A stretch of DNA of 21,280 nt, from the IMG/VR virus record IMGVR_UViG_3300048088_000143, positions 1-21,280 of that record. One strand, given 5' to 3'. Positions 6,200 through 21,280 of this stretch are shown piece by piece. Each line of letters starts with the position of its first letter. Within the stretch, counting starts at the first letter, position 1. The notes beneath the pieces are model-generated. The model was not told where the DNA came from. It saw nothing but the letters and a program-made list of their open reading frames with translations, and did not search any database. Source of the stretch: a virus. The position numbers were made by a program, and so were the translations under genes.

Positions 6200-6203
<4 letters not shown>
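5775..6203 (-). CDS. GNAT-fold virion-associated protein, T7 gp13-like
   Basis: 142 residues. It begins [16 protein letters not shown] and ends in [20 protein letters not shown] followed by EAYLFSRV, the usual C-terminal strand-helix-strand of GNAT acetyltransferases ('A..W...LGF..E......DG.....F.R'). The middle has [20 protein letters not shown], fitting the acyl-CoA binding region, but the classic R/Q-x-x-G-x-G/A loop is not clear, so catalysis is uncertain. T7 gp13 (DUF2833) is a GNAT-like protein encoded just before the internal core genes and needed for proper particle assembly. The same position here supports that role. The start ATG at 6203 overlaps the fibre stop in an ATGA junction, with no separate ribosome binding site visible. 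Confidence 0.75.
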
Positions 6204-7646
<1,443 letters not shown>

Positions 7647-7654
<8 letters not shown>

Positions 7655-18490: not shown

Positions 18491-18645
18491 TTACGCCCGC
18501 CTTTGGCACGCTGCCGATGCGATCGCACGCGCGCCTGGCGCCGCCGCTTGGCGAGCTCGAGCTCGGCCGGCGCCGGCGCGTTGCCGGGGATGTAGCTCGC
18601 CGGCGTGCTGGCGCGCGCCTTGTGCTGGTTGTAGCGCGTGGTCAC
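18487..18645 (-). CDS. 52-residue basic protein between terminase subunits
   Basis: A short frame from a GTG at 18645 to a TGA at 18487: (M)TTRYNQHKARASTPASYIPG, a Pro/Ala linker, then a strongly basic C-terminus with AKRRRQARVRSHRQRAKGG. The start overlaps the TerS stop (GTGA) and its stop overlaps the TerL ATG (ATGA), so it bridges the two terminase genes exactly. That double coupling is the main evidence that it is real. The basic tail suggests DNA or RNA binding. It might link TerS, TerL and DNA, but this is inference. It is easily missed because of its size. Confidence 0.65.
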   Translation of the reverse strand: MTTRYNQHKARASTPASYIPGNAPAPAELELAKRRRQARVRSHRQRAKGGRK

Positions 18646-19160
18646 GATGCGCGCTTACGGGCTTGCGCCAGGATCAACGCAAAATCGATGCCGCTATGTT
18701 CGTGCTGTATCTTGTCGCGCCAGCGATCCGGCATCCGGTTTTTTGTCCAGAAAATGCAGGCGGTCGTGTCCGGCGCGAAGTAGCGGCGCACAGGCGTCTG
18801 CACGATTTCGCTGCGGCCGTCGCCTATGGCAATGGTGCGGATGTCGATGTCGTCGTGCTCGTAACCACAGGCACGCTCGAATAGCGCCCGCTCGACGCGC
18901 GCATTGGCATCGGAGCGTCCCTCTTTTATGGCGCCTGAAAATTCCGGCCGGCTCGCAATCCAATCGTCGATCGTGCTCGGATTGACCGCGAAGTATTCGG
19001 CTAAATCCTCGTTGGTGGCGCCCATGCGCGCTGCCTTGCGCGCAATGCCGACGTAGCGCTCGTCGAATTTCGATGGGCGCCCGCGCTTGCGCTTCGCGGG
19101 CTCGGGCTTCGGCCGCTTGCGCTTGGTGCTCGGCTTCGGAGGCTGGGCATTTTTGCTCAT
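18642..19160 (-). CDS. Terminase small subunit
   Basis: 172 residues from an ATG at 19160; a GTG two codons upstream (19166) is the alternative. A Lys/Pro-rich N-terminal tail ends in KRKRGRPSKFDERYV. A helix-turn-helix follows, with KAARMGATNEDLAEYFAVNP and STIDDWIASRPEF. The rest carries ALFERACGYEHDDIDI and FWTKNRMPDRWRDK, standard for small terminases of this type ('a.iFwlKNR.p..WrDk'). TerS binds the packaging start site in the DNA and hands it to TerL. A GRP motif suggests added minor-groove contact. The end overlaps the 52-residue gene. Confidence 0.9.
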   Translation of the reverse strand: MSKNAQPPKPSTKRKRPKPEPAKRKRGRPSKFDERYVGIARKAARMGATNEDLAEYFAVNPSTIDDWIASRPEFSGAIKEGRSDANARVERALFERACGYEHDDIDIRTIAIGDGRSEIVQTPVRRYFAPDTTACIFWTKNRMPDRWRDKIQHEHSGIDFALILAQARKRAS

Positions 19161-19170
19161 GCCCACGAAT

Positions 19171-19455
19171 TTACGTCAATCGCCGCCCGCGGATGGATTT
19201 CGTCATGCGACATCGGAAATCTTCAACGAGCTCGAAGAGCTGGCAATCCTGGCGCAGAAGCTCGAAACGCAATTCGCCCTGGCCAGCAAACCGCCAGGAA
19301 TAGCGGCCGTGGTCGACGCCGATTTCGCGCTTGATCGCGCTGACGCGCGTGTCGGCGAGTCCGAGCACGTCGGCGATGTCGACGTTGTTGGCGCCGAAGG
19401 CGTCCAATCGTTCGACGATGTCGAAGAGCTCGCGCTTGGCGACCGGCCGCGTCAT
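19171..19455 (-). CDS. Small helix-turn-helix-like protein
   Basis: 94 residues from an ATG at 19455, four bases after the DUF1376 stop and without a clear ribosome binding site. The segment KRELFDIVERLDAFGANNVD and IADVLGLADTRVSAIKREIG looks like a helix-turn-helix in which the second helix (DTRVSAIKREI) would read DNA. The C-terminal half (RFELLRQDCQLFELVEDFR) is probably a dimerising helix. It lies directly before terS. A regulator of the late operon or a packaging accessory are both possible. The family is not recognised. Confidence 0.7.
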   Translation of the reverse strand: MTRPVAKRELFDIVERLDAFGANNVDIADVLGLADTRVSAIKREIGVDHGRYSWRFAGQGELRFELLRQDCQLFELVEDFRCRMTKSIRGRRLT

Positions 19456-19459
19456 TTTG

Positions 19460-20107
19460 CTATTCGCCGCTGTTGTGGTGTTTGTGCTCGGCGATTGCGC
19501 GCAGGACGCGCATGCGAAGCTGGGGTAACGCCTCGCCCGGTCTTGCCTCTATGCCGACGCTTTTGCCCTTGTCGACAATGCCTTGTGGCGATCGCATCCA
19601 ATCCGCGCGCGCGGCTTCGTTGGAAGTTACTGCACCGTTATTAGATATAACGGTTTTGGTTAGCATCGGCCGAGCATCGTCCAAGCATTGCTCGCCGGCC
19701 GTTTGAGCATCGGCTCGAGCATTGCTTGGCGCCTCGTCGAGCATCGATCGAGCATTGCTCGGCGCATGCTTGGGTCGCGTTTTAGCATCGCCCGCCCAGC
19801 GCGTGACGGACGCCGCCAGCGCCTTGCTGTGCCGGATGTGATACTTCGCGAGCTCGGCGTCGGCGCGCTTTTGGTGGTGGCCGTCGTCCTCTTGCTCGAA
19901 AAACTTGGCGACGACGTAGTCGACCGCGACGCGCTCGGCGAGCGTTACCGCCCCGGCGAGCCGGTAGCGTTCGCGCTTGTCGAGCGGTAACGGTGCTTCG
20001 TGCGCATAGTATTGGTCGAGCAATTCGCGATATGCGCCGCGCTCCGTGAGCGTGAGCCCCCTGGTCGCCTTCGCAAAATCGCCAATGTGATGCGGGTAAC
20101 TGTGCAT
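19460..20107 (-). CDS. DUF1376 (YdaU-type) replication-initiator-like protein
   Basis: 215 residues. MHSYPHHIGDFAKATRGLTL, then TERGAYRELLDQYYAHEAPL and a strand-helix part to about residue 90 match DUF1376, found in phage genes that occupy the place of replication initiators. A linker from about 106 to 150 is encoded by repeated AGCAT units and holds NARSMLDEAPSNARADAQTA. The C-terminus has WMRSPQGIVDKGKSVGIEAR and LRMRVLRAIAEHKHH. I start at the ATG at 20107, because the family begins MH.YP.HIGD and GGAAA lies about ten bases upstream. An ATG at 20116 is too close to that site. No helicase or loader gene is in the window. Confidence 0.82.
   Translation of the reverse strand: MHSYPHHIGDFAKATRGLTLTERGAYRELLDQYYAHEAPLPLDKRERYRLAGAVTLAERVAVDYVVAKFFEQEDDGHHQKRADAELAKYHIRHSKALAASVTRWAGDAKTRPKHAPSNARSMLDEAPSNARADAQTAGEQCLDDARPMLTKTVISNNGAVTSNEAARADWMRSPQGIVDKGKSVGIEARPGEALPQLRMRVLRAIAEHKHHNSGE
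19635..19653. repeat. AT-rich inverted repeat, possible origin unwinding element
   Basis: The perfect 7-base arms ccgttat and ataacgg flank tagat. The 31 bases from about 19637, through the palindrome and the following ttttggtta, are roughly two-thirds A/T by hand count, the most AT-rich stretch I noticed in an otherwise very GC-rich window. It lies next to the AGCAT repeat cluster inside the DUF1376 gene. Confidence 0.6.
19662..19790. repeat. Helically phased AGCAT iteron-like cluster
   Basis: On the plus strand agcat begins at 19662, 19673, 19684, 19706, 19718, 19740, 19751 and 19784, with a variant gcatgct at 19764. Five sites continue as agcatcg and three as agcattgct. Steps are 11, 11, 22, 12, 22 and 11 bases, then about 33 to the last, close to one, two or three turns of the helix. 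The steps of 11 and 22 fall in different reading frames, so this is not a simple protein repeat. The cluster encodes the linker of the DUF1376 protein, as lambda iterons sit inside gene O. Confidence 0.65.
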
Positions 20108-20131
20108 GGTGCCCATTTCCGAGCGCTAACG

Positions 20132-20923
20132 TTAGACTTTGAACCAGGCCGGTATCTTTTTCGAGCGCCCGCGGTTGAGAATCTCGACGGCAGCCGACGC
20201 GACGCATTGCGGTCGCGACTGCGCAGTCTGTTCGCGGATGACGTTCGCCTTGTGCATCAACGCGCCGACGCCGCCGCGCATATCGTGGAAACGCGCGATC
20301 GCGTCGCTGTCCTGCAGCGCGCCGTTGTAGCGTTGGCACACCAGCGCGACGCCGTCGATGATTTCCTGGGTTAGTCCTGGGTCGCCGAATGATTTGTTTA
20401 CGATGACCAGGGCGCGCGCGAGGGTCTTGGCGCCGTCGCGACGATACACGCCCAATAGGGTTTTGACGCAGGAAACCGTGCCCTCGGCCTGGTTGCGCGC
20501 GATGTTGAGCCCGCAGCCCTCGACCGTTCTCTTGACGTTGACTTCATCGTCGAGCCCGCCGGTGACTGCAGTATTAAATCGGTCGTATGCCGTAACCCCG
20601 CGCGTCGCGTTGAGCTCGAGAAACATGACGGCCTCTTGCGCTTCCGTCATGCCAGTGTAGACGCGGCAGTCGATGCTTTGCGTTTTCCAGCCGTCGCCCA
20701 GCCAATCCTTGACGACCTCGACGCGATGCTGGCCGTCGACCTCGTAGTAATAACCGTCGCGAAGATTGACCACGGGATAGCCCAAAAGCTCGGGGTCAAA
20801 CGTGGCGCGCAGCTTCGAGACGTGCTGCGGCACCAGGCGCCGCTGCGCGCGCTCGGAGACGCGCATTTTCGCGAGCGGCACACCCTTGATGACGGAATTA
20901 AGTTTCGCAAGTTCGTTGCTCAT
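20132..20923 (-). CDS. ParB-like protein (DUF6551-type)
   Basis: 263 residues from an ATG at 20923 with AAAGGAG nine bases upstream. The ParB-like N-domain shows KMRVSERAQRRLVPQHVSKL, then YPVVNLRDGYYYEVDGQHRV with DGQHR at 63-67, the ParB/Srx-type phosphate-binding box, and FLELNATRGVTAYDRF, the second typical box. The remaining part is helical, with EIIDGVALVCQRYNGALQDS. The layout matches phage ParB-like proteins annotated DUF6551. These may bind or nick DNA or hydrolyse nucleotides, and a role in replication or regulation is inferred. It overlaps the upstream HTH gene by 26 bases. Confidence 0.8.
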   Translation of the reverse strand: MSNELAKLNSVIKGVPLAKMRVSERAQRRLVPQHVSKLRATFDPELLGYPVVNLRDGYYYEVDGQHRVEVVKDWLGDGWKTQSIDCRVYTGMTEAQEAVMFLELNATRGVTAYDRFNTAVTGGLDDEVNVKRTVEGCGLNIARNQAEGTVSCVKTLLGVYRRDGAKTLARALVIVNKSFGDPGLTQEIIDGVALVCQRYNGALQDSDAIARFHDMRGGVGALMHKANVIREQTAQSRPQCVASAAVEILNRGRSKKIPAWFKV

Positions 20924-21280
20924 CGGCGAGCTCCTTTAGTTGGCGGCGCAGCGCTTCTAGCGCTGGTTCCGCTTCGCGCAATTCCGCCAGGAGCTCTGTC
21001 GCCTCCGTGGCGGGTACCTCGAAACCGTGGGCAAGGTTGAGCCCGTGCGCGACGCCGGCGATCGTGGCGACGGACGTGCGGACGATGCGCGCCGGGTCGA
21101 TTGGGCGCCCGCGCTTGGGCATCGCGATCTTGACGCCTTCCGCCCGCATAAGGTCGCGCACGCGCTGCGGCGACAGTTCCAGCGCTGCGGCGATTTGTTC
21201 GACGTTGAAGCCTTGCGCGATGTAGGCGCGCAAGGCTTTGACGCGCTCGGCGCGCGGCCGGCCGCGCGGCGATGCGCGCT
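20898..21280 (-). CDS. Helix-turn-helix DNA-binding protein, start outside window
   Basis: The frame is open to the right edge with no ATG or GTG, so the start lies beyond it; 126 residues are visible. The visible N-terminus reads RASPRGRPRAERVKALRAYI. It is followed by an HTH, NVEQIAAALELSPQRVRDLM, then EGVKIAMPKRGRPIDPARIV. The C-terminus is a charged helix with LREAEPALEALRRQLKELAD, likely a coiled coil. Two GRP motifs flank the HTH. It is probably a transcription regulator or a replication accessory, but the family is not identified. Confidence 0.75.
   Translation of the reverse strand, partial: RASPRGRPRAERVKALRAYIAQGFNVEQIAAALELSPQRVRDLMRAEGVKIAMPKRGRPIDPARIVRTSVATIAGVAHGLNLAHGFEVPATEATELLAELREAEPALEALRRQLKELADEQRTCET
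21251..21268. repeat. 18-base perfect GC palindrome
   Basis: cgcgcggccggccgcgcg reads the same on both strands. It lies in the coding part of the edge gene, within codons for RGRPRA. In such a GC-rich sequence it may be chance or codon-driven. An operator is possible but not supported. Confidence 0.35.

Follow-up and report, generated by a model that had tools for sequence, protein, structure and literature searches.

In phage lambda the origin of replication lies in the middle of the initiator gene and comprises iterons and an AT-rich tract, as described in PMC7466680, and PMC3985674 gives these iterons as four 19-bp sites bound by the O protein. Iteron plasmids likewise have repeated initiator sites, placed beside a DNA unwinding element (DUE) with repeats of its own, and their Rep initiators have winged-helix domains. 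We know of no case in which plasmid iterons are encoded in the initiator's linker. The locus analyzed here, a phage gene of the DUF1376 (YdaU) family, is best read as a lambda-O-like origin that would lie within an initiator gene whose product belongs to a different protein family. As in lambda, repeated sites follow the N-terminal domain within the (proposed) initiator gene, and an easily melted tract adjoins the iterons. The repeats themselves differ: the unit is 11 bp in DUF1376 genes as against 19 bp in lambda, and in many DUF1376 relatives the adjoining block is, unlike that of lambda, a 7-bp repeat.

The window, meaning the whole stretch of DNA that was analyzed, is a virus record of 21,280 bp. 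It was compared with a 39.5-kb IMG/VR phage record (G001) that is largely collinear with it; from the DUF1376 gene to the far end of the window the two are collinear at a DNA identity of 85-95%. The 1.2 kb located 5' of the gene (window 20109-21280) have no DNA match in G001, and a mosaic boundary likely lies just 5' of the DUF1376 gene. Among the families listed from a scan of 32 greedily chosen G001 ORFs were an integrase and structural proteins; this choice of ORFs missed even the DUF1376 gene, and absence from the scan therefore proves nothing. The structural region of the window contains a collagen-like, Gly-rich repeat protein with GATG/GNTG repeats (6200-7654, minus strand). The features of the locus are as follows.

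18642-19166, minus strand: terminase small subunit (phrog_309, E 2.8e-46)
19171-19455, minus strand: downstream ORF of 94 aa, no family match above cut-off
19460-20116, minus strand: DUF1376 (YdaU-family) gene, 218 aa, PF07120; proposed initiator holding its own origin
19634-19661, unstranded: AT-rich palindrome, taken as the proposed DNA unwinding element; lies past the iterons in gene direction
19652-19666, minus strand: junction ATGCTAACCAAAACC, where the last iteron runs into an A/C-rich stretch
19662-19788, unstranded: iteron cluster, nine AGCAT/ATGCT sites encoding the linker, eight in 11-bp register with one 12-bp step
19684-19712, unstranded: composite repeat copy 1, holding GCAATGC
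19718-19746, unstranded: composite repeat copy 2, 34 bp further
19751-19779, unstranded: composite repeat copy 3, 33 bp further
19847-20098, minus strand: DUF1376 domain (match coordinates), predicted winged-helix-like fold (AlphaFold2), proposed to bind the iterons
20132-20923, minus strand: upstream neighbor, DUF6551/ParB-like protein (PF20188, phrog_1033)
20898-21233, minus strand: small HTH-like protein, upstream (weak matches)

The gene product belongs to the DUF1376/YdaU family, matching PF07120 with an E-value of 2.6e-25 and 89.1 bits against a cut-off of 30.1. This was the only match in a Pfam scan at E<=0.1, which returned neither the lambda O family (PF04492, Phage_rep_O) nor, in a difference from iteron plasmids, any Rep family. 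Matches to the PHROGs 'primosomal protein' families 3992, 9327, 4118 and 6451 were also obtained. DUF1376 proteins carry this label in PHROGs and in some phage records, so a replication role for them has been guessed before; in the PHROGs match listing it comes without an origin or iterons attached.

The linker-coding DNA of the window gene carries AGCAT on the plus strand at 19662, 19673, 19684, 19706, 19718, 19740, 19751 and 19784, and on the minus strand at 19766. Successive plus-strand sites are 11, 11, 22, 12, 22, 11 and then 33 bp apart, the single 12-bp step making the phase of the register slip by 1 bp, once. An earlier, sequence-only reading of this DNA had reported at least eight AGCAT sites with the first six of these spacings and had named a similar density elsewhere in the genome as a refutation. 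The cluster is confirmed, with nine sites in 127 bp, and there are no more than two in the next-densest 130 bp of either the window or the whole of G001. The arrangement also persists in a relative, as that reading had asked, with sites and spacing conserved and synonymous changes at 0 of 36 linker codons and at 21 of 162 codons outside the linker; G001 has nine AGCAT sites inside its own DUF1376 gene. Over the whole window AGCAT is unenriched (33 observed, 30.3 expected), and the nine sites per 130 bp compare with at most four in 60 dinucleotide shuffles (collagen-like gene cut out). The density is not extreme among all 5-mers, since GC-rich words such as CGCGC reach at least 13.

Shuffles of the window gene that preserve its codons give a mean of 2.2 ATGCT and a maximum of 6 in 20,000, against the 8 observed; when the motif is left free, by scoring the commonest linker 5-mer, codon shuffles give p = 0.007. 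In the lag test described below, the window gene has its best lag at 33 (p 0.01) and a lag-11 z of only 1.4, and it is not among the 112 strict period-11 arrays of the family, a shortfall that is likely due to the 12-bp step and the repeated peptide. The case from the window gene alone is thus moderate. GCAATGC, which lies in composite repeat copy 1, occurs 13 times in the window, three of these copies within the linker. The junction ATGCTAACCAAAACC has counterparts in two other loci, TGCTAACCAAAACC in L240 and TGCTAACCAGAACC in L235. The stretch at 19749-19761, CGAGCAATGCTCG, is a 13-bp palindrome save for its central base, and the family word ATGCGAACGCA likewise contains the mirrored halves TGCG/CGCA; given this symmetry the iteron sites may be bound by dimers.

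Directly past the last iteron, in gene direction, lies the softest DNA of the whole window, the softest stretches of 25, 30 and 50 bp starting at 19638, 19637 and 19616, respectively. The 8-bp arms of the palindrome at this place, ACCGTTAT and ATAACGGT, occupy 19634-19641 and 19647-19654. The sequence-only reading had singled out this palindrome as the softest DNA it saw, correctly for all three lengths. The corresponding hairpin (19636-19662) has a z of -5.96, and 1 of 200 shuffles was equally good.

We extended the comparison to 242 DUF1376 loci, the window included, from IMG/VR, bacterial genomes and phage records, all of which have the domain. They include the best 80 of 586 and the best 80 of 593 candidates, 63 genome loci and 15 annotated phage loci hand-picked from 100 records with a match; L001 and L020-L022 were left out as repeats of other loci. 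Dropping three incomplete genes left 239, which reduce to 192, 145 and 90 genes at 90, 70 and 50% identity. Phages and prophages from several groups of proteobacteria yielded members of the family.

The neighborhood of these genes connects part of the family with replication. Among the 144 loci other than the window, 141 have at least 400 bp downstream and 122 have an ORF of at least 70 aa near the gene end. Of these next ORFs, some of which may be spurious, 16 match DnaB_C, nine an IstB/DnaC-like ATPase and four lambda P itself, whose gene provides lambda with a helicase loader next door, and at least 93 match none of the three. In contrast to lambda, no IstB-type loader was found in the window record: searches for DnaB_C and IstB were empty both there and in G001, two records that may be incomplete. 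The window phage would use host factors or an unrecognized loader.

The domain is a plausible candidate for the binder of the repeats. AlphaFold2 predicts residues 11-100 as one block of helices with a beta hairpin (pLDDT 93-98), and the best matches among solved structures are mostly winged-helix proteins (Z 4.5-6.3), including ORC2 and entries with 'initiator' and 'Rep-DNA complex' in their titles; these matches are too weak for a claim of relationship. Foldseek gave no match at E<=0.001, and a sequence search of the PDB gave a single marginal, unrelated match (E 0.75). The 11-mer words of the linkers were taken from 157 of 192 genes with a permissive detector, which picks up words in 45-54 of 192 shuffled genes as well. 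Their similarity tracks how alike the DUF1376 domains are (Mantel r 0.36, p 0.001), with no such relation to the C-terminal part (r 0.01, p 0.32). Words agree at 5.7 of 11 positions, the random level being 5.6, where domain identity is below 35%, and at 10.0 where it exceeds 80%. This correlation fits binding of the protein to its own gene; linkage of neighboring sequence could give the same.

The correlation is also compatible with a linked binder, and the array might be bound by some other protein of the phage, such as a repressor or a ParB-like protein, and serve regulation or partition with no origin involved. Tandem repeats also act as centromeres and operators, and a ParB-like gene stands immediately 5' of the window DUF1376 gene. 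However, tblastn at E<=1e-3 finds neither the ParB-like nor the HTH neighbor in G001, where the array is retained, or in the other 241 DUF1376 loci, most of which include about 2 kb upstream. The two proteins are consequently unlikely partners of the array, and this lowered slightly a probability that was already small. Also against a regulatory or partition site are the helicases, loaders and lambda P genes that adjoin part of the arrays, and a position inside the gene with an adjoining soft or strand-biased block, which is that of the lambda origin. We consider this explanation improbable, and the further rivals taken up next markedly more so.

The repeats could instead merely reflect a repetitive, low-complexity protein linker. 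Peptide repeats are present (APSNAR...APSNAR), and the best lag of the window gene, 33, would suit them. Because 7 and 11 are coprime to 3, however, peptide repetition alone does not yield lags of 7, 11, 14 and 22, and these are the lags that recur. We measured the self-matching of post-domain DNA at lags 4-40 against synonymous-codon shuffles that preserve the protein. In the 145 genes below 70% identity, p<=0.01 was obtained in 58, with z>3 at lag 11 in 51 and at lag 7 in 45; other long ORFs from the same loci gave p<=0.01 in 5 of 203, and z>3 at lags 11 and 7 in fewer than two each. When the whole post-domain region was used, 62 of 145 genes reached p<=0.01 and 94 had z>3 at 11/22 or 7/14. 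Inside the domain itself (bp 0-230) there is a weaker signal too, with excess at lags 11 and 22 in 6 and 11 of the 145 genes.

Strict arrays, defined as three or more adjacent copies, gave the same periods. Period 11 is represented in 112 of 192 genes (3.7 after shuffling) and period 14 in 69 (2.7). The remaining 14 periods between 8 and 23 gave at most 14 genes, at period 12 (11.3 after shuffling), followed by period 9 (8 and 0.3) and period 8 (7 and 1.3). Strict period 7 proved a poor test, with 143 of 192 genes yet 55.4 after shuffling, and period 14 is the usable one. The contention of the sequence-only reading that protein repetition does not explain spacings of 11 and 22 thus extends to the family, most of whose signal is removed by shuffles that keep the protein. 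With the synonymous-site conservation described below and periods that are not multiples of 3, this leaves a purely protein-level origin of the repeats very unlikely. The periods do not depend on one word: after removal of the dominant-word genes from the 90-gene (50%) set, lags 11 and 7 still come first in the remaining 43. The periods persist as the DNA words change between genes.

An independent set was drawn from a Pfam search of 369 genomes, which found 15 places in 11 genomes (our own profile recovered 11 of the 15). Its 11 genes, taken by Pfam alone, contain no strict period-11 or period-14 array (0 of 11), and the frequencies given above accordingly hold for the sampled clades. In this set p<=0.01 was reached in 1 of 11 genes, although by mean z the top three of the 37 lags are, in order, 11, 7 and 22. 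Within single genomes, the linker is the top lag-11 site in Bordetella IFTN2, Vibrio 1.003.O, Moraxella Mcat24 and the window record, and not in Methylophilaceae P19250A, Acinetobacter KEN_01 or G001. The lambda-O family was tried as a positive control. It was found at eight places in 6 of the 369 genomes, giving seven loci with testable ORFs, picked by position, of which L259, one ORF of L261, and L265 reached p<=0.01, with lags 30, 26 and 20. These ORFs share no period and did not provide the codon-shuffle test with a positive control from a known origin.

Short tandem repeats are prone to expansion, and the arrays could be neutral products of replication slippage in a tolerant linker. In favor of this, the C-terminal regions do diverge faster than the domain. 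Synonymous sites contradict neutrality. In 53 independent pairs from 512 candidates, each gene being used once, synonymous change at codons of unchanged amino acids is lowest in the linker, at 14.5% (248/1705), against 27.2% (1088/3996) for the domain and 33.5% (1462/4361) for the C-terminus, and the linker rate lies below the domain rate in 45 of 53 pairs (sign test p 2e-7). For the window gene and that of locus L002 the changes are 0/36 in the linker, 4/84 in the domain and 16/56 in the C-terminus, and the linker differs from the remainder of the gene at p 0.016. There is very little doubt, in our judgment, that the linker repeats are functional DNA. Slippage would in addition have had to generate both periods, in a single order, in diverged genes whose words differ, and we give it hardly any credence.

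This order is strict. The median starts of the best 11-bp and 7-bp windows are 316 and 362 bp from the beginning of the gene, and the 11-bp array is ahead of the 7-bp array in all 30 of the 30 genes that have both (z>2.5). Typically (ATGCGAACGCA)n is followed by ATGCTA or ATGCTC and then by (CACCAGA)n, (ACACAAG)n or (AACCAAG)n. The coding strand of the 7-bp arrays is 42% A, 33% C, 13% G and 12% T. After synonymous shuffling they keep 38% A and 32% C (A+C falling from 75% to 70%), so that the bias is mainly carried by the peptide. The most repeated linker 7-mer of the family is GCAATGC, present in at least two copies in 37 of 145 genes where 5.2 are expected. Some second blocks use a 6-bp unit in place of 7 and encode DQDQDQ, TPTPTP or NQNQNQ, as in L059, L034 and L013.

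Least probable of all is a packaging (pac) site: the small terminase gene of the window starts 294 bp past the end of the DUF1376 gene, but in five whole phage records the DUF1376 gene is ~2.8 to 8.6 kb from the nearest annotated terminase (counted across record ends where shorter), and lag-11 arrays are plain in three of those five phages.

We return to the lambda-like reading, in which the linker repeats would be a replication origin on which the DUF1376 protein acts; we think this probable, and infer both the binding and the origin activity. The sequence-only reading had put forward such an origin with self-binding as an idea to test, and the idea withstood two of the refuting outcomes named there, a similar AGCAT density elsewhere (none in the window or G001) and loss of the spacing in a relative. 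The DUF1376 gene would encode a replication initiator and the DNA coding for the post-domain linker would be its origin. The winged-helix-like N-terminal domain would bind the iterons (GCAATGC/ATGCTCGA), which lie about one helical turn apart, and would form a multimer on one face of the DNA. Assembly of the initiator would then melt the adjoining soft DNA, which in the window phage would be the AT-rich palindrome and in many relatives the 7-bp repeat, with its A/C-rich coding strand and T/G-rich partner. The C-terminal part would recruit DnaB, either directly or via a loader.

A broader proposal, to which we give slightly less than even weight, is that DUF1376 genes represent a separate and widespread class of phage origin within the initiator gene. 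Here 11-bp double-strand sites for the initiator, each spanning one helical turn, would precede strand-biased 7-bp repeats whose role is to capture single strands as the DNA melts and the helicase is loaded, and the words would drift as the periods, order and place stay. Since 7 and 11 are coprime to 3, such an origin would force 7- and 11-residue peptide repeats on the linker.

Were the origin reading correct, a Pfam family that still bears the name 'protein of unknown function' would gain a function, and in phages with clear arrays the origin would be located to a few hundred bases with no experiment needed. A second family, without detectable sequence kinship to lambda O, would then share the origin-in-initiator layout. 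Further in-gene origins could come to light through the simple device of codon shuffling combined with a search for periods not divisible by three.

The reading would also point to a location for the origin of a well-known prophage. The Rac prophage of E. coli K-12 has an active origin, oriJ, according to PMC3945230. In Rac, ydaU, which is a DUF1376 gene, is followed by the ATP-binding ydaV, and the ydaU linker (L246:5120-5977) shows GATGTTCAAAC-like repeats by eye. Codon shuffling of this gene gives p 0.002 with lags 23, 33 and 11 (lag 11 z 2.6), and over a longer stretch p 0.008 with lags 23 and 32. Rac ydaU-ydaV is thus like the loci above in its DUF1376 gene and its linker repeats, which in ydaU are irregular with best lags of 23 and 33, and we regard the ydaU linker as a candidate site for oriJ. 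Plasmids with oriJ were reportedly the subject of work by Potrykus in 2000.

A phage-like circle of P. aeruginosa has the gene order HTH regulator, Cro/CI, CII, YdaU and primase/helicase. Plasmids on which DUF1376 might be the sole replicon were also sought; examination of 3 of 12 distinct plasmid accessions gave no clean case, one record having its own repM beside the YdaU/ATP-binding pair and the other two being phage-like. The plasmid pSWBY1 has a YdaU-family gene and an ATP-binding gene (L256:20629-22262) along with repM and resistance genes, and a 52.8-kb circular 'plasmid' (L257, NZ_CP124656) encodes portal, capsid, tail and integrase and has a lambda-like early region. Linker p-values are 0.31 for pSWBY1, 0.16 for the P. 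aeruginosa circle and 0.05 for pANC7919.1, beside the 0.008 of K-12 ydaU, and in none of these four linkers is lag 11 among the top four lags.

Other signals commonly consulted for origins contribute little. The shift in GC skew at 19.7 kb that the sequence-only reading had proposed to look for is absent from the window. The minimum of the detrended skew lies 532 bp from the linker in Moraxella Mcat24 and 184 bp in Acinetobacter KEN_01, and at least 3.6 kb away in the other three of five whole phage records. Gene direction also alters skew, and we have not counted it as evidence. The consensus of the DnaA box is TTWTNCACA. With up to one mismatch it occurs 10 times in the window (8.7 expected), and there is none between 19159 and 20251; a DnaA-dependent origin was rejected for want of a DnaA-box cluster near the linker.

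A literature search gave no description of iterons or an origin in DUF1376/YdaU genes among the sources within its reach, which were seen in part and left out most subscription papers, so an earlier report is possible. The accessible parts of PMC5795418, PMC8557891 and PMC8312247, papers in which DUF1376 occurs, make no mention of iterons or an origin, that of PMC11014345, in which YdaU occurs, describes none in these genes, and the accessible part of PMC11142715 concerns a different plasmid replicon, without iterons.

One linker of the family has a further peculiarity. In L026 the DUF1376 reading frame continues into a stretch that looks like an HNH endonuclease, which might reflect insertion of a homing element into the linker.
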